Below, one piece after another: positions 8,646 through 15,400 of a DNA stretch of 45,428 nt. How positions within the stretch are numbered: the first letter of the stretch is position 1; each line of letters starts with the position of its first letter. Under the pieces are notes generated by a model. That model searched no databases, had not been told where the DNA came from, and saw only the letters and a list, made by a program, of their open reading frames with translations. Position numbers and translations under genes: made by a program. The DNA is from Chloroflexota bacterium (GTDB lineage: Bacteria; Chloroflexota; Dehalococcoidia; UBA2979), in assembly GCA_003670735.1 (NCBI GenBank), contig QWQU01000007.1, positions 1-45,428 of the forward strand, in the 5' to 3' direction.

Positions 8646-9139
8646 CCGATCGACGAAGCCTTCGAGTGAGCAGCCCCATCGCTGTGCGTCCGCATGACGT
8701 AGTGCGTGCCGATGTCCTCGATCTCGCGAAACCCGAGCCGGCGATACAGCCGCTGCGCCGGGTTCACCTTGTAGACCCGCAGCTGCACCGGCCGCGGCGC
8801 AGCCTCCGTGATCACCCGCTGCACCAGCGCACCGCCGAGCCCACGCCCCTGCATCGAGGGCGCCACGCGAATGTTGTTCAGCGCGACGAACTCCCCCTCA
8901 TCCTCCACATCGAGGTACCCCGCGACCGCCCCACCAACGAGCACCACATCCAGCGTGCGATTCGTCGCCACCTGAATGTCGCCCCAGCGCCGCCAGTACA
9001 CCTCGCGCTCATGCGCCTCATCCCACGGCCCGAACGTCGCCTCGACGTACCCACGCATCGTCTCGACGTGCAGTGCATACAGCCCCTCGATGTCCCCATC
9101 GAGTGCGGGCCGCAGCGTGTACTCGGGAATGTCAGCCAT
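8642..9139 (-). CDS. GNAT acetyltransferase
   Basis: A 165-residue GNAT fold protein. YTLRPALDGDIEGLYALHVETMRGYVEATFGPWDE opens the fold. FVALNNIRVAPSMQGRGLGGALVQRVI carries the acetyl-CoA loop (Q-G-R-G-L-G), and VYKVNPAQRLYRRLGFREIEDIGTHYVM is the closing motif, with Tyr as the usual general acid position. The pattern resembles a common group of small GNATs of unknown substrate. ATG 9139 is chosen because sequence upstream of it in frame has no similarity to GNATs and would run into the divergent SIR2-like gene. It is convergent with the small ORF on its left and divergent from the SIR2-like gene, with about 40 bases between the starts. Confidence 0.88.
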   Translation of the reverse strand: MADIPEYTLRPALDGDIEGLYALHVETMRGYVEATFGPWDEAHEREVYWRRWGDIQVATNRTLDVVLVGGAVAGYLDVEDEGEFVALNNIRVAPSMQGRGLGGALVQRVITEAAPRPVQLRVYKVNPAQRLYRRLGFREIEDIGTHYVMRTHSDGAAHSKASSIG

Positions 9140-9179
9140 TAGTGCAGTGTGCCACACGAGAACGAGCGATAATCCGTTG

Positions 9180-10340
9180 GTGCACTCCCCGCGCGAGGTT
9201 GCTGCTGTGGTTGAGTCGTTGCCAAAGACTGCGGTTGTTGTAGTTGGGGCCGGCGCATCAGCAGGTGCCAGCCACCTGACGAGTCCCGTGGCTAATGACT
9301 GGCGGCCCCCGGTCGTTCGACAGCTTTTCAATTGGACTAACGCCAGCGCTGATCATTTCCGGAACCATTCGGGTGCTGATCTCATCCGTGGTGCGTTCCC
9401 TGAGCTAGCGAACGGTGACGAACCAGATCTTGAGTCGCGACTCCTCGAGTTGTCGCGTGACCCTTACTATTCACGCCCTTTCGTCGATGTACCGATGTTC
9501 TTGCGGGATCTGCTGCTTGACTGCGGTAGGCGTTGCCTACCCGGTGGACCGGAGACTTACGCGACGCTTGTCGGTCGATTGCTTCAAACTGGCCATGACG
9601 TTGCCTTCGTCTCGCTCAACTACGACAACATGCTTGAGCAGGCGGTGTGGGGTTTTCAACGAGATCGACGAAACCGCGGTCTTGATGGGTACGTTTCTGA
9701 AAACCCATTGGTAGTGAAGGTTCATGGATCGGTCGATTGGTTCTGGTTCTATCCGCGGCACGACCAAAATCCGGAGAAGTTTCTGGACACGATGGCCGAG
9801 TGGAACCGAACGAACCGCCGTCCCGAAGGGCAGTTACTTGTGTACCGCAGCCAGCACTCAGTCACCGCGCCTGAAGAACATTTCCTAGATGTGCGCGATG
9901 GTCGTTACGTGATTGTGGGTGGCGGAGGTGGCTCGCGAAATCCGGCGTGGGCATATCCGGCGCTTACCGCTCCACTCGCAGGCAAGACAAGAGAGCGAAT
10001 AATCGCTCCGCGGTATCATCTGGAAGCTTTGCAAAAGTTGCAGCATCGCAACACGAAGTACGCGTTCATCGGCACGAACGGGTACGACGAGCATGTTCTG
10101 CAAATGCTTGGTGAGCACTGCAGCCCCGCTATCAATTTGGCACTAGTGACTCAGACGACGATGTCGGAGGCTGAGGCAGCAGCAACACGTATTGTCGACG
10201 GAATGCGTACCGGTCAGCGTGACGGCGAGCTAGGCGCTCGCACATCGATCTGGCACGAAGGGTTTCGGGAGTGGTTGCGCTCTCCCGCTTTCGAGAAGTT
10301 CCTCGAACTTCCTTCGCCGAACGAGAGCATCCGAGTCTAG
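9180..10340 (+). CDS. SIR2-like domain protein, possible antiviral effector
   Basis: SIR2-like domains bind NAD+; in several defence systems they destroy NAD+ to stop phage replication. Here VVVVGAGASAGA gives the glycine-rich NAD-binding start (about residues 19-30). VAFVSLNYDNMLEQA corresponds to the conserved N-D block, VVKVHGSVDWFW to the catalytic-His block, and YAFIGTNGYDEHVLQML to the last NAD-contacting strand. The protein is about 386 residues and no other effector or sensor domain was recognised. The gene looks foreign: it has less C in third positions and more A/T than its neighbours (runs such as TTTTCAATTGG). The start is uncertain: GTG 9180 is chosen, with TTG 9177 and GTG 9207 as alternatives. 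No partner defence gene lies next to it, so it is either a single-gene system or an orphan. The defence role is inference. Confidence 0.8.
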   Translation: MHSPREVAAVVESLPKTAVVVVGAGASAGASHLTSPVANDWRPPVVRQLFNWTNASADHFRNHSGADLIRGAFPELANGDEPDLESRLLELSRDPYYSRPFVDVPMFLRDLLLDCGRRCLPGGPETYATLVGRLLQTGHDVAFVSLNYDNMLEQAVWGFQRDRRNRGLDGYVSENPLVVKVHGSVDWFWFYPRHDQNPEKFLDTMAEWNRTNRRPEGQLLVYRSQHSVTAPEEHFLDVRDGRYVIVGGGGGSRNPAWAYPALTAPLAGKTRERIIAPRYHLEALQKLQHRNTKYAFIGTNGYDEHVLQMLGEHCSPAINLALVTQTTMSEAEAAATRIVDGMRTGQRDGELGARTSIWHEGFREWLRSPAFEKFLELPSPNESIRV

Positions 10341-10872: not shown

Positions 10873-12135
10873 CTACAGGTGCACGCCGTGCAGCAGTGGC
10901 TCGGCGTCCGAGTACGGCCCCACGATCGCAATCCGCAGTCGCGACTCGTCGATCACCTCGTGCGCGATCGCGGAGATATCCTCACGCGTCACCGCCTCGA
11001 AGCGAGCGACCGTCTCATCCGGCGTCAGCAGCGGCAGCCCCCGGATCGCGCGCGACCCGTACCAGCTGGCGACCGCGCTCGTGTCCTCCACATGCAGCTC
11101 GATGCGCGAGCTCAACAGGCCCTTCGCGCGCACTAGCTCGTCATCCGTCACACCCTCGTCGCGCACGATGCGCAGCACCGAGGCGATCTCGCGCAGCGTC
11201 GGCGCGGCATTCGAGGGGTCCACGCCTGCGTAGATGCCGAACGAGCCCGTGTCCGCCAGCTGCGTCGTCGCCGAGCGCACGTCGTAGCAGAGCGCCAGCT
11301 CCTCGCGCAGTCGCACGAACAGCCGTGACGACATGCCCTCGCCTGTGATCACCGACAGTGCACCCAGCGCGTAGCGACGCATGTCCGTCGCCGGCAGCCC
11401 CAGCATCCCCAGCGTGATGTGCGCCTGCTCCGTGTCCTTCTCCAGCAGCGCCGTGCGCTCGCCGCCCTCGACCATGTTCGGGCGCCACTGCGCCGGCCGC
11501 CCCGACTGCCAGTCGCCCAGCAGATCCGTCGCCAGCGCCAGGCCCTCTTCGTCCGTGATCGCACCGGCGATCGAGCACACCGTCGCGTTCGCCACGTACT
11601 GCTCGCGGTAATAGTCGCGCAGCCGCTCCTGCGTCACCGCGCTCACCGTCTCCGCCGAGCCCGCGATGTCACGACCGTGCGGCTGCCCCGGCCAGAGCAG
11701 CCCGTCCAGCGCGATGCCGACGAGCTCGTCCGGGGAGTCCTCCACCGCCGCGAGCTCCTCGAGGATCACCCCGCGCTCGCGCTCAATCTCATCACCAACA
11801 AACAGCGAGGCGCGCAGCATGTCCGCCAGCACGTCCACCGTGCGTGCCGTGTGCTTCGGCGTCACTTTGCCGTAGTAGACCGTGTACTCGCGCTCGGTCG
11901 CCGCGTTCAGCGACCCACCGACCGCGTCCAGCTCCATCGAGATGTCCTGCGGTCGCGGGCGCCGCTCGGTGCCCTTGAACGCCATGTGCTCCACGAAGTG
12001 GGACAGCCCCGCCTCCGGGTCCATCTCGAACCGCGACCCGGCCGCCACGTACAGCGCCACCGCCACCGACCGCGCATGCGGCATTGGGGTCACGAGGACC
12101 CGCAGCCCGTTGGCGAGTGTCACGAGCTGTGGCAA
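10873..12135 (-). CDS. M16 family zinc peptidase (pitrilysin-like)
   Basis: M16 peptidases are zinc metalloproteases with an inverted HxxEH motif. It is seen here as HFVEH (His46, Glu49, His50), followed by the third-ligand region GVILEEL around residue 126. The two-lobed M16 pattern continues: N-terminal VTLANGLRVLVTPMPHARSVAVALYVAAGSR, then the C-terminal lobe with QAHITLGMLGLP, MSSRLFVRLREELALCYDVRS and the final HLxR-type region. The start is TTG 12135, supported by GAAGGAG five bases upstream; the longer frame from 12213 has no site. The protein is 420 residues, the normal size for the bacterial single-chain form (PqqF/YmxG-type). It follows the MBL-fold gene after about 200 bases without a clear terminator. 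YmxG-like members are thought to process proteins or peptides; the substrate here is unknown. Confidence 0.93.
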   Translation of the reverse strand: MPQLVTLANGLRVLVTPMPHARSVAVALYVAAGSRFEMDPEAGLSHFVEHMAFKGTERRPRPQDISMELDAVGGSLNAATEREYTVYYGKVTPKHTARTVDVLADMLRASLFVGDEIERERGVILEELAAVEDSPDELVGIALDGLLWPGQPHGRDIAGSAETVSAVTQERLRDYYREQYVANATVCSIAGAITDEEGLALATDLLGDWQSGRPAQWRPNMVEGGERTALLEKDTEQAHITLGMLGLPATDMRRYALGALSVITGEGMSSRLFVRLREELALCYDVRSATTQLADTGSFGIYAGVDPSNAAPTLREIASVLRIVRDEGVTDDELVRAKGLLSSRIELHVEDTSAVASWYGSRAIRGLPLLTPDETVARFEAVTREDISAIAHEVIDESRLRIAIVGPYSDAEPLLHGVHL

Positions 12136-12333
12136 AGCGGCTCCTTCAGAGGCGCAGGTTCGAGGTCGCACGATCCTATGGTCGCCCCCCGCCCCGCACA
12201 ATCCCGCCCCCATCGCGCGCCGCCGCCCAGAGGTTTGAGGGGAATTACGGAATCGCCGAGCCCGCCGCCCTATCGAGACGCTCTAGGCGGAAGTCGTCTG
12301 GGCCAATGCCTCAAGAAGCTGGACGAGAACAGC

Positions 12334-13011
12334 TCAAGAGCTGTACCAGGTGACGTCGCCAGCCAAATCGTCTGGGTGCTCCTTGTTCGCGAACACCGCG
12401 TACTCCACCTGCGAGGCACGAATCGACGTCCCGTCGCCATGACCCGGCAGCACCACCGCGTGCCCCGGCAGCACGTGCAGCCGCGACACGATCGAATCGA
12501 GCTCCTGCATCAGCGCCTCGTGCGAGCCCGTGCGCCCCGGCCCGCCCGGGAACAGCGTGTCGCCCGTCAGCACCGCGCCACCCATCGACGACTTGATATA
12601 GAGACAGATCGAGCCCGGCGTATGACCGGGCGTCGAGATCACCTCAAGCTCCGCGCGCCCCACCGCCAGCGACTCCCCATCACGCAGCACCTCGCTGTGC
12701 ACGTCGATCTCCAGGCGCTGCGGCTCGTCGCCCATGTACACCGGTGCATCGACGCTCGCACGCAACGTCGCGAGGCCGGCCCAGTGATCGCGATGCTGGT
12801 GCGTGATCACGATCGCCGACACCGCGTCGCCACCGAGTGCGGCCACGACCGCCTCGCTACCCTCGGGCGCATCGACCACGATCGCCGGCCCCCCCCCACC
12901 ACCGAGCGGACGAACGATGTACGAATTGTTCCCGAGTGGTCCCAGCGGGCCGACCATCTCGATCGTCACGCGTGTGTCCTCGTAGATCGCGTTGATCGGA
13001 TCACCGCTCAT
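12334..13011 (-). CDS. metallo-beta-lactamase-fold hydrolase
   Basis: This 225-residue member of the MBL superfamily has the metal motif HQHRDH (His71, His73, Asp75, His76). It also has STPGHTPGSICLY (His), VLTGDTLFPGGPGRTGS (Asp) and VVLPGHGDGTSI (His), all in the order of glyoxalase II-type enzymes. The GRTG/GDTLF arrangement resembles the YcbL-like group. It may hydrolyse thioesters or similar small substrates in the cytoplasm; the exact substrate is not known. ATG 13011 overlaps the stop of the MutY-like gene by 4 bases (ATGA), so the two are translationally coupled. The frame upstream of it lies inside the MutY-like gene and is not part of the protein. Confidence 0.92.
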   Translation of the reverse strand: MSGDPINAIYEDTRVTIEMVGPLGPLGNNSYIVRPLGGGGGPAIVVDAPEGSEAVVAALGGDAVSAIVITHQHRDHWAGLATLRASVDAPVYMGDEPQRLEIDVHSEVLRDGESLAVGRAELEVISTPGHTPGSICLYIKSSMGGAVLTGDTLFPGGPGRTGSHEALMQELDSIVSRLHVLPGHAVVLPGHGDGTSIRASQVEYAVFANKEHPDDLAGDVTWYSS

Positions 13012-13973
13012 CGTGTCCCACTCTCTGCTGCACCCACGTCTTCGGAACCCAGACCAGACCAGCCCGCACGTTGCCACGCGAAGCCTTCATCACACAGCGC
13101 GCGCAGCATCGCACGCACCGTCGCCGCCTCACCCTCGTCGTGCGCGAGATCGCGCAGGAGCGTCGAGGTGCGCACGCGGCCATCATCGCGCCCGCGCAGC
13201 GCACGCATGATGCGCCCACGCCACATCCGATTCGAGCCGTCGTACTTCGACTGCGCGCGCACCGGGGTCGCCAGCGCCCCCGCCGCGAACTTCGAGCGTG
13301 CCTCGCACATCGAGGCGAGCGCGCACACATCGCACTTCGGCTTGGGCACGCACACCTGCGCGCCGTAGTCCATCATCGCCGCGTTCCACGCGCCCGCGTC
13401 GCCCGGCGGCAACAGCCGCTCCGCTGCGACTCGAATCGCCGCGGCTGGCGTCTCGAGCGCCGGCTGCACATCCCCGTACACGAGTCGCCCGAGCACACGC
13501 ACGACGTTTGTATCTATCGCGGCGCCGTCATCACCGAAGCCGAAGCACTGCACGATTGCCGCCGTGAACGGCCCCACCCCCGGCAGCGCCAGCAACGCCT
13601 CGTACTCCCGAGGCAACCCGCCGCCGTGCTGCGCAATGCAGCGCTGCGCCGTCTCACGCAGTGCCAGCGCGCGCTTCGGGTACCCGGCCCCCGCCCACAC
13701 GCGCAGCACCGTTGCCGTGTCCGCCGCCGCTGCATCGGCCAGCGTCGGGAACGCCGCCGTCCATCGCTCCCACAGCGGGAACACGCGCGACATCTGCGTC
13801 TGTTGGCTGCACACCGCCGCCACCAACGCCCAGTACGGATTGCGCGCATCACGCCACGGGAAGTCCGAGCTGTGCTCCGCGCCCCACGCCAGCAGCCCGC
13901 GCCGAATCCGCCCGACACGAGCGGCCGTCAGCGAAGCGGGCAACGAGCTCGGTGCAGCGCGAGTCGATGGCAT
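13008..13973 (-). CDS. MutY-like HhH-GPD DNA glycosylase lacking the catalytic Glu
   Basis: MutY removes adenine mispaired with 8-oxoguanine. The protein has PWRDARNPYWALVAAVCSQQTQ, the helix-hairpin-helix LPGVGPFTAAIVQ, the catalytic aspartate region AIDTNVVRV (Asp154) and a four-cysteine iron-sulfur loop. Two departures are visible. The residue that is glutamate in MutY (SEVMLQQTQ) is Ala53 here. The cysteine spacing is C-x5-C-x2-C-x5-C (Cys208, 214, 217, 223) instead of C-x6-C-x2-C-x5-C. The C-terminal NUDIX-like 8-oxoG recognition domain is absent; the last 80 residues look like a winged helix (GSNRMWRGRIMRAL), as in actinobacterial relatives. Neighbours are coupled: the stop overlaps the next gene by 4 bases. 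It could be a different base-excision glycosylase. No gene symbol is given because of the missing residue. Confidence 0.85.
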   Translation of the reverse strand: MPSTRAAPSSLPASLTAARVGRIRRGLLAWGAEHSSDFPWRDARNPYWALVAAVCSQQTQMSRVFPLWERWTAAFPTLADAAAADTATVLRVWAGAGYPKRALALRETAQRCIAQHGGGLPREYEALLALPGVGPFTAAIVQCFGFGDDGAAIDTNVVRVLGRLVYGDVQPALETPAAAIRVAAERLLPPGDAGAWNAAMMDYGAQVCVPKPKCDVCALASMCEARSKFAAGALATPVRAQSKYDGSNRMWRGRIMRALRGRDDGRVRTSTLLRDLAHDEGEAATVRAMLRALCDEGFAWQRAGWSGLGSEDVGAAESGTR

Positions 13974-14037
13974 GCAGCCACCCTATAGATGCACGATGCT
14001 GCTCGCATCCTCGTCGCGTTCGAGGAAGGACGTGCCC

Positions 14038-14553
14038 GTGTTCCAGCTCCAGGTACCGCTATTCGAGACCGTCGCGCGCACGCTGATCGTGTACGTGCTC
14101 GTCCTCGTCGGCCTCCGCCTCGCCGGCAAGCGCGAGGTCGGCCAGATGACCCCGTTCGACCTCGTCGTCGTGCTGCTCATCGCCAACGCCGTGCAGAACG
14201 CGATGGTCGGCCCCGACAATTCGCTCACCGGCGGCCTCATCGCCGCCGCCGTGCTACTCACCGCCAACTACACGCTCGCCTTTGCCAGCGACCGCATCCC
14301 GTGGCTCCGCCAGGCCGTCGAGGGCACTCCCACGGTGCTCATCAGTGACGGTCACCTCATCGGCAAGAATCTCAAGAGCGAGCAGCTCGACGTCGAAGAA
14401 GTCCTCATGGCGATGCGCGAGCACGGCGTCGAACACATCGAGGACGTCCGCCTCGCCGTCCTCGAAACCGATGGCTCGATCAGCATCGTCCCCGCCAGCA
14501 GCGACGACAGCACCCGCACCAAGCGCCGCATCCGCCAGCGCGAGCACGGGTAG
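14038..14553 (+). CDS. DUF421 membrane protein (YetF-like)
   Basis: The 171-residue protein starts with a hydrophobic helix (VARTLIVYVLVLVGLRLAGKREVG), followed by QMTPFDLVVVLLIANAVQNAMVG and a third helix (GGLIAAAVLLTANYTLAFAS). The KREVGQMTPFDLVV block is the hallmark of DUF421, and GTPTVLISDGHLIGKNLKSEQLDVEEVLMAMREHGV is its cytoplasmic beta domain. YetF-type proteins act in Bacillus in the spore or membrane context, but the role here is unknown. The start GTG 14038 is chosen for its AGGAAGGA site 7 bases upstream; ATG 13996 is in frame but has no ribosome binding site. It is divergent from the MutY-like gene and convergent with the MerR/TipAS gene 6 bases away. Confidence 0.9.
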   Translation: MFQLQVPLFETVARTLIVYVLVLVGLRLAGKREVGQMTPFDLVVVLLIANAVQNAMVGPDNSLTGGLIAAAVLLTANYTLAFASDRIPWLRQAVEGTPTVLISDGHLIGKNLKSEQLDVEEVLMAMREHGVEHIEDVRLAVLETDGSISIVPASSDDSTRTKRRIRQREHG

Positions 14554-14559
14554 CGCGGA

Positions 14560-15318
14560 CTAGTCGCCCTTCGCGACGTCGAAGCCGTGCGCATCATTCG
14601 AGCCAGCACCGATCGCCTTGCTCATGTACGCGCCGAGCTCTTCCGACATGAGGCCATGCGTCGCCGCCACTGCCCCCTCGCGTTCCACCATCGAGATCAT
14701 CGCGCCCGCCAACTCCGGCTCGCCCACGAATTCCAGGAACAACGCCTTCAGTCGCCCGATCATCTCGAGCACATGCGGTGCCTGCGGATCGATCCCGGCC
14801 ACACGTGCCGCGTCGAGCTCGGTCAAGATCGCCTGCTGCTCCACGCTCGCTGCCTGGATGCGCTCGATCCCGATCGAGCTGCGGTGTTCGCGCAATCGTT
14901 CCATCTGCTCAGTGCTCAGGTACCGTTCTAACATCGTCATGTCCTCCATCACGCGCAGTAACGCTTCGCTGGAGAGCTGACCGAACTCGAGTGACGAATG
15001 CACACGCCGCAGTTGCGCGGCGAGTCGTTGCTGCCGCGTGATCGCCGCCTCCGTCTGCGCGAGATGCTCCGCAACCACATCACGCAGTTCACGAGGTGAA
15101 TCGAGCTGCTCGCGAATCGCCGCCAGCCCGAGCCCGATCCGACGCAGCACGAGAATCTCGTACAGCCGTGCCACATCCGCGTTCGAGTACACGCGATGCC
15201 CCGCATCCGTGCGACTCGATGGCACCAGCAATCCTTCGTGCTCGTAGTGTCGCAGCGCGCGCACGGTCAGCCCCGTCTCGCGCGCCAGCTCCCCCGTCCG
15301 CCACGTTCGAGTTCCCAT
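14560..15318 (-). CDS. MerR-family regulator with TipAS-like C-terminal domain
   Basis: The N-terminal 70 residues form a MerR winged helix (TWRTGELARETGLTVRALRHYEHEGLLVPSSRTDAGHRVYSNADVARLYEI). A long dimerisation helix follows (to about 130). The C-terminal helical domain has QAASVEQQAILTELDAARVAGIDPQAPHVLEMIGRLKAL, which resembles the TipAS antibiotic-recognition domain that covalently or tightly binds thiopeptides. Here the ligand is unknown. ATG 15318 is preceded by GGAGGG. The regulator likely acts on a promoter with a long 19-bp spacer, but no target promoter was identified. It is divergent from the small membrane gene at 15401, which may be its target (inference from position only). 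Confidence 0.88.
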   Translation of the reverse strand: MGTRTWRTGELARETGLTVRALRHYEHEGLLVPSSRTDAGHRVYSNADVARLYEILVLRRIGLGLAAIREQLDSPRELRDVVAEHLAQTEAAITRQQRLAAQLRRVHSSLEFGQLSSEALLRVMEDMTMLERYLSTEQMERLREHRSSIGIERIQAASVEQQAILTELDAARVAGIDPQAPHVLEMIGRLKALFLEFVGEPELAGAMISMVEREGAVAATHGLMSEELGAYMSKAIGAGSNDAHGFDVAKGD

Positions 15319-15400
15319 CAACCCTCCGAGCCGAACCGTAGGACGTGACGCAGCGTCACCTGCAAGCACCCCCGCTCGACACCGCAACTACGCTCGAATC

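Follow-up and report, generated by a model that had tools for sequence, protein, structure and literature searches.

A MutY-type glycosylase without the catalytic glutamate and with a remodelled base pocket in two clades of Dehalococcoidia

Introduction

The window analysed here, a whole stretch of 45,428 nucleotides, encodes a MutY-type DNA glycosylase in which alanine stands at the place of the catalytic glutamate, and the question raised by this locus is what such a protein does. In the part of PMC12871665 available to us, recruitment of the glutamate is called a cornerstone innovation, the step by which MutY became an adenine glycosylase; Glu43 (Geobacillus numbering) protonates N7 of adenine and activates the nucleophile, and adenine excision is 3,600 times slower in E43Q and 5,500 times slower in E43S. 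The same part confines the glutamate to MutY and the related MAG1/MIG enzymes, states that every HhH glycosylase uses an aspartate, and notes that the bases taken out by most other glycosylases are damaged ones, held by a weaker glycosidic bond. A metagenome survey counted the glutamate in 160 of 160 MutYs (PMC11078426, accessible part), and the open-access literature searched gave no description of a MutY clade that naturally lacks it.

Materials and methods

The sources of homologues were 60 near relatives, 294 class genomes, 251 phylum genomes and GTDB contigs; 100 regions, a selection of all class and phylum matches, were fetched. Sampling outside the Chloroflexota came from the GTDB-contig set only, whose 11 loci were Chloroflexota plus one Ignavibacteriales locus with the glutamate. 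The alignment held 172 rows including the query: 45 of clade 1 and 9 of clade 2, the two Glu-less clades, both Dehalococcoidia; 100 ordinary Chloroflexota MutYs with Glu; and 18 distant rows called MIG-like by eye. The partial L043 and L089 (the latter G208), L001 and L003 (the query itself) and identical cores were dropped before counting. Loci L189–L228 were fetched later and lie outside the alignment, and L026 and L042 were excluded from the trees. Trees were built with the trait columns removed, one of 170 rows and a careful one of 77 rows comprising 29 of the 53 Glu-less and 48 of the 99 ordinary rows of the former. Geobacillus numbering of positions was taken from sequence alignments and papers.

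For other repair genes, 59 genomes were searched with TIGR01084; 54 of them carry the Glu-less type, and many are incomplete bins. The further TIGR01084 matches listed for the 54 carriers were all read individually, and NUDIX_4 matches in the genomes were taken as free-standing Nudix genes.

Results

The gene, its protein and its neighbours

The features of the locus are as follows.

10873..12213, minus strand: M16 peptidase, the next downstream gene
12334..13011, minus strand: MBL-fold hydrolase, glyoxalase II-like (Pfam Lactamase_B, 70.6 bits)
13008..13973, minus strand: Glu-less MutY-type HhH glycosylase, 321 amino acids (ATG start, ORF call, profiles, AlphaFold2)
13050..13253, minus strand: C-terminal winged-helix domain, residues ~241–308, as in MutYX 8uuc (AlphaFold2 secondary structure and structural alignment)
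13305..13352, minus strand: [4Fe-4S] cysteine motif C208-x5-C214-x2-C217-x5-C223
13506..13508, minus strand: Asn156, at the place of Asn140/Asn146, retained (54/54 clade rows)
13512..13514, minus strand: Asp154, catalytic Asp138/Asp144, retained (54/54 clade rows)
13566..13568, minus strand: Phe136, at the place of Tyr126 of Geobacillus (alignment)
13806..13808, minus strand: Ser56, at the place of the adenine-sandwiching Leu40/Leu46 (alignment)
13815..13817, minus strand: Ala53 codon, at the place of catalytic Glu37 (E. coli) or Glu43 (Geobacillus) (alignment)

The protein matches HhH-GPD (Pfam, 54.5 bits) and the mutY profile TIGR01084 (NCBIfam, 181 bits), carries the hairpin LPGVGPFT at residues 130–137, and has MutYs as its nearest solved structures by sequence in the PDB (8uuc and those of E. 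coli and Geobacillus). An AlphaFold2 model built from 92 rows reached pLDDT 95 and pTM 0.91. Its first Foldseek match, over the whole length, was the clusterless MutYX 8uuc, solved opposite 8-oxoG; in a second structural alignment 8uuc ranked level with the MutY entries of Geobacillus (Z 27.3 to 26.9), with 264 residues of 8uuc_A aligned to model residues 18–308 (Z 26.9, rmsd 2.6), a span that takes in the C-terminal domain. The helix-strand arrangement predicted at the C-terminus is read as a winged helix, which stands where a Nudix domain might be looked for: NUDIX_4 gave no Pfam match in the 321-residue protein. The missing Nudix domain does not set the clades apart, because short Glu-bearing Chloroflexota MutYs are without it too. 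A conference abstract also describes a common winged helix for archaeal MutYA and bacterial MutYX, and states that E. coli MutY can be substituted by MutYAs (PMC12585504). Since this layout is already known, the pocket is the new part, and fold, domains and ancestry all read as those of MutY.

The preliminary description of the gene called the iron-sulfur cysteines shifted. The spacing is real: x5 separates the first two cysteines in all 44 clade-1 rows that could be scored and in 5 of 9 clade-2 rows, whereas 93 of the 94 ordinary rows scored have C-x6-C-x2-C-x5-C and a single one has x5. It looks, however, like a trait of the lineage. Glu-bearing MutYs of the clusterless type, which have no four-cysteine motif, also occur in Ignavibacteriales and Chloroflexota (L042, L148–L151 and L178).

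Other genes of the window include a DUF421/YetF-type membrane protein divergent from the glycosylase gene (14035–14553, plus strand), a MerR regulator that ends in a TipAS antibiotic-recognition domain (14560–15387, minus strand) and a weakly SIR2-like ORF (8976–10340, plus strand; SIR2_2 24.8 bits versus a cut-off of 24.5), possibly a defence or NAD-related gene.

Loss of the glutamate and changes around it

The query segment LVAAVCSQQTQ aligns with LSEVMLQQTQ of MutY, so that Ala53 falls on the catalytic glutamate. This column holds alanine or glycine in all 54 Glu-less rows (34 Ala and 11 Gly in clade 1; 9 Ala in clade 2) versus glutamate in all 118 other rows, and four extra fragments (L194–L197, from G208, G022, G030 and G033) have alanine there too; neither chance nor assembly error therefore explains the loss. 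What had been described for one gene, and proposed for checking among its homologues, thus extends to both clades. The retention of Asp154 and of the HhH, noted at the same time, is equally confirmed. Asp154, Asn156, Gln57, Gln58, Thr59, Tyr98 and Met201 are kept in 54 of 54 rows, among them the counterparts of the opposite-strand residues Gln48, Thr49 and Tyr88 (here Gln58, Thr59 and Tyr98); of the 100 ordinary rows, 95 have Asp in the Asp154 column and the other 5 have Glu.

The positions around the glutamate, among which the preliminary description had missed Phe136 for Tyr126 and the changes at Leu46, Val51 and Ala130, differ as well. Both clades have Ala/Ser/Thr at Leu46 (54/54; Leu in 97 of 100 ordinary rows), Met/Ile at Val51 (54/54; Val in 84, Ala in 11 and Ile in 3 of 100 ordinary rows) and Ile/Val at Ala130 (54/54; Ala in 100/100). 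Tyr126, present in all 100 ordinary rows, is Phe in 52 of 54 (43 of 45 in clade 1), the exceptions being the clade-1 rows L097 and L100. The arginine preceding the LPW motif, which is probably E. coli Arg19 by alignment, occurs in 99 of 100 ordinary rows versus none of the 54. Confined to clade 1 are Cys/Ala at Met45, small residues at Leu86 and, at Tyr89, a Pro where 83 of 100 ordinary rows have Asn. At the Gln182/Glu188 position clade 1 has Pro/Ala/Ser in 45 of 45 rows, while clade 2 has Gln in 9 of 9.

Set against the E. coli adenine-binding residues R19, E37, L40, N140, Q182, M185 and D186 (PMC2714593, accessible part), three of the seven are gone in clade 2 and four in clade 1, the catalytic one included. 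The backup proton donors suggested in the part of PMC12871665 available to us are Tyr126 and a water held by Arg31/Glu188; in clade 1, Glu43 and Glu188 are gone throughout and Tyr126 in 43 of 45 rows, so that these donors are lost in nearly all members. Among the positions listed as separating clade 1 from ordinary MutYs, no substitute acid is conserved in both clades. A clade-1 loop at residues 168–175 (window 13449–13472, minus strand) has conserved Asp168, Gln170, Pro171, Glu/Asp174 and Thr/Ser175, and its acids were dropped as a substitute because clade 2 is without the loop. Comparison of the rows indicates that the base-binding pocket has changed in a patterned way and not by drift.

Origin and selection

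Each Glu-less clade is monophyletic (SH-aLRT 99 in the 170-row tree; 100/99 each in the 77-row tree). On the 170-row tree, parsimony needs a single change for both; in the 77-row tree clade 2 lies closer to six Glu-bearing rows (support 80/75), but the AU test still allows a grouping of the two as one clade (p 0.38). The pocket changes would thus trace to one or two events, for which reason their joint occurrence does not amount to many independent observations. In eleven close pairs dN/dS was 0.109–0.386, which shows purifying selection on the Glu-less gene; a stop was reported inside the matched stretch in four clade rows and none in the window gene.

In three Glu-bearing MutYs, L171, L172 and L173 (families f104 and f112), Leu46 is replaced by Ala and Val51 by Ile, and it is possible from their sequences that they represent an evolutionary intermediate towards the Glu-less pocket. 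The rows L097 and L100 (G020 and G006) are of the Gly type, evolve fast, retain Tyr126 and come from genomes of 1.1–1.2 Mb. Named clade-1 records are labelled Dehalococcoidia or Chloroflexi, and two are labelled Thermoflexus: L033 and L039, titled Thermoflexus hugenholtzii JAD2, are clade-1 sequences that duplicate L005 and L010 from G001 and G019, kin of the window genome, and these record names may be wrong.

Other repair genes of the carriers

The TIGR01084 search did not show an ordinary MutY in 53 of the 54 carrier genomes. The further matches were 31 EndoIII-type genes, with the Lys motif in 31 of 31, four genes with Glu that were assigned to the MIG-like group by eye (L190 in G016, L189 in G028, L164 in G093 and L163 in G198), and one Glu-bearing MutY. 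Beside L189 and L190, in two clade-1 genomes, an ORF resembles, by eye, an AMP-dependent synthetase. The Glu-bearing MutY, L193 in G176, has Tyr, C-x6 spacing and Ala at Leu46, and shares this genome with the clade-2 Glu-less L103; its contig has 4,194 bases and the bin a contamination of 4%, so that it may be a genuine second gene or a contaminant. Coexistence, if real, favours a new role, and the 53 carriers in which no ordinary MutY was seen fit replacement.

The second, normal MutY that the preliminary description proposed to look for was not found by profile search in the window's own genome (77% complete), where the sole other HhH-GPD match was taken as AlkA-type from its sequence. Fpg was present in 57 of 59 genomes and 52 of 54 carriers (G023 and G024 are without it), and a UDG family in all 63 genomes tested for it (36 Glu-less carriers and 27 Glu-type); there is therefore no uracil-repair gap for the Glu-less protein to fill, and this candidate role was discarded. 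A good number of relatives apparently manage without MutY: among the 294 class genomes, many of them incomplete bins, 171 had no match at 1e-20.

The MBL-fold neighbour

The mutY stop and the MBL start overlap in ATGA (13008–13011), a coupling that the preliminary description considered unusual. The MBL gene follows on the same strand, no more than 1.5 kb downstream, at 22 of 45 clade-1 and 6 of 9 clade-2 loci (28/54). It does so at none of the 100 ordinary mutY loci, and for 84 of these 1 kb or more of downstream sequence is present. The linkage is conserved but not universal among the Glu-less loci: it is absent from all 13 aligned f20 loci, and MBL lies ~1.7 kb downstream in G014, ~2.6 kb downstream in G215 and on another contig in G205. 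MBL homologues of 33–52% identity were found in 32 of 36 Glu-type genomes tested, none directly downstream of mutY (in G150 on the same contig, ~3.3 kb away on the other strand), and an exclusive MBL–glycosylase partnership was rejected on this count. The linkage is shared synteny. The M16 peptidase follows downstream in the same order in many f1 loci. The genomes of L097 and L100 gave no MBL match at 1e-25, and a distant MBL (26%) stands beside L097 only, on the other strand. The MBL protein of the window has GSH_gloB as its top NCBIfam match (86.7 bits, under the cut-off of 200.8).

Discussion

To judge from its pocket, the Glu-less enzyme probably acts on a base other than that of MutY or does no more than bind DNA. 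The reading that we favour, and to which we give an even chance, is a MutY descendant with a rebuilt base pocket that works with Asp alone, reads G or 8-oxoG, and has a target other than plain adenine. Conservation, the joint pocket changes, purifying selection and the high-confidence MutY fold speak for it. The fold, the iron-sulfur cysteines, the DNA-wedging and opposite-strand residues and the winged helix are still MutY's, as is the Asp/Asn pair, which stabilises the sugar cation; the Glu that protonates N7 of adenine has gone, and with it the surrounding Tyr, Leu, Val and Arg. Such an enzyme may scan one strand for G or 8-oxoG, flip the opposing base and cleave it with Asp alone, and because Asp alone would do the cleaving, the expected target would be a better leaving group than plain adenine, such as a damaged or modified base. 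The plainest reading would then be a return of the clade to chemistry by Asp alone, acting on another, more labile base, with the opposite strand still read as in MutY.

Several observations stand against this reading. The Glu-less protein occupies the place where MutY would be in 53 of 54 carriers, and 52 have Fpg, which would also fit continued 8-oxoG:A repair; clade 2 keeps Gln at Gln182, and L097 and L100 keep Tyr126. Conservation of Asp154 is also no proof of catalysis, because the residue can be kept for structure. The fuller proposal, a glycosylase of new specificity that recognises G or 8-oxoG on one strand and, by means of Asp alone, takes out a partner base other than plain adenine (oxidised, alkylated or otherwise modified), that replaced MutY in two Dehalococcoidia groups and that possibly acts in concert with the adjacent MBL hydrolase, is tentative and somewhat less probable than its negation. 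The joint changes of the base pocket agree with the earlier suggestion of another lesion or mechanism, though they do not point to a particular substrate.

A catalytically silent binder of 8-oxoG:A or G mismatches, kept for binding, signalling or repair recruitment, is rather unlikely. Loss of the Glu alone nearly abolishes adenine excision (PMC12871665, accessible part), the DNA-reading residues and winged helix are retained under purifying selection, and the pocket mutants V45A and Q182L of E. coli MutY acquire tight binding to T/G but do not excise from it, according to the part of PMC2714593 available to us. Such a binder would leave unexplained why Asp154 and Asn156 persist in every clade row, more strictly for Asp than in ordinary rows, and why the pocket change is patterned. 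The inactivity once considered for this protein is accordingly contradicted by dN/dS and the Asp/Asn pair in the sense of decay, and survives in the sense of a maintained, binding-only protein.

We consider it unlikely that the protein is still an adenine glycosylase on 8-oxoG:A, acting through a slower or inverting Glu-independent route. Its occupation of the place of ordinary MutY beside Fpg would suit this, and Geobacillus E43S is measurably active with an alpha-anomer product; that activity, however, is the 5,500-fold reduced one, assayed at 60 °C, and E. coli MutY with the Glu replaced gave no repair in cells (PMC12871665, accessible part, for all three). Both backup donors are moreover affected, Tyr126 in 52 of 54 rows and Glu188 throughout clade 1, the class includes many genomes (incomplete bins among them) with no match to the protein, and the carrier G176 also has the Glu-bearing L193.

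MBD4 is an HhH thymine glycosylase without the MutY-type Glu. A T:G or U:G mismatch glycosylase, MIG- or MBD4-like, would be a special case of the Asp-only reading and is improbable. Weak MBD4 profile matches and the structural closeness of MIG (1kea, Z 24.1) argue for it; the Glu-less pocket is nevertheless not MIG-like, because the distant MIG-like rows keep Glu in 18 of 18 and Tyr in 17 of 18, and the UDG family is present in all genomes tested. A decaying pseudogene or assembly artefact, for which only the missing catalytic residue speaks, can be dismissed almost entirely in view of 54 related sequences in the same state, the dN/dS values and the conserved synteny.

These clades are a natural case in which the Glu was lost together with its neighbours and the remaining protein stayed under selection. 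They provide a ready-made experiment on the MutY scaffold without its Glu, and they bear on 8-oxoG repair where Fpg is present and ordinary MutY as a rule absent.

Among known systems, Endonuclease III shares the HhH-GPD core and the cluster, whereas the query has Phe136 at the place of the catalytic Lys (located there in the HhH by the accessible part of PMC11754123) and scores just 59 bits against TIGR01083. MIG (Mig.MthI, 1kea) has the same core and cluster (Z 24.1), and in the part of PMC2714593 available to us it has six of the seven residues that bind adenine in E. coli MutY, the Glu among them, with Leu for Gln182; the query pocket lacks the Glu, Leu and Arg of that set of seven and so is not of the MIG type. 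Geobacillus and E. coli MutY (TIGR01084) agree with the query in the HhH core, Asp144/Asn146, the Fe-S cysteines and Gln48/Thr49/Tyr88, while the query is without the Nudix domain and FSH loop, has no Glu, and has a first spacing of x5 instead of x6. Of the features that mark a MutY, the query thus has the Asp/Asn pair and the opposite-strand residues and not the catalytic Glu. Its 181 bits lie below the TIGR01084 cut-off of 286.5, which is not decisive, because five short Glu-bearing relatives (176, 187, 237, 245 and 248 bits) fall below as well; L180, matched nearly to the model end, reaches 339 bits.

The ordinary Chloroflexota MutYs, short and with a winged helix, are 36–47% identical among the phylum matches listed, and share the opposite-strand residues and, in most rows, the C-terminal F.GS.R..RG; they differ by Glu, Tyr, Leu, Val/Ala, Arg and Ala in the pocket and by having no MBL gene directly downstream. 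MutYX 8uuc, from Eggerthella sp. YY7918, keeps the Glu (VSEVMLQQTQ) and is without the Fe-S cluster, whereas the query has Ala and four cysteines; the two share a MutY catalytic core, a winged-helix C-terminal domain and the F.GS.R motif, and the query thus has the winged-helix domain on a MutY core that characterises MutYX and MutYA.
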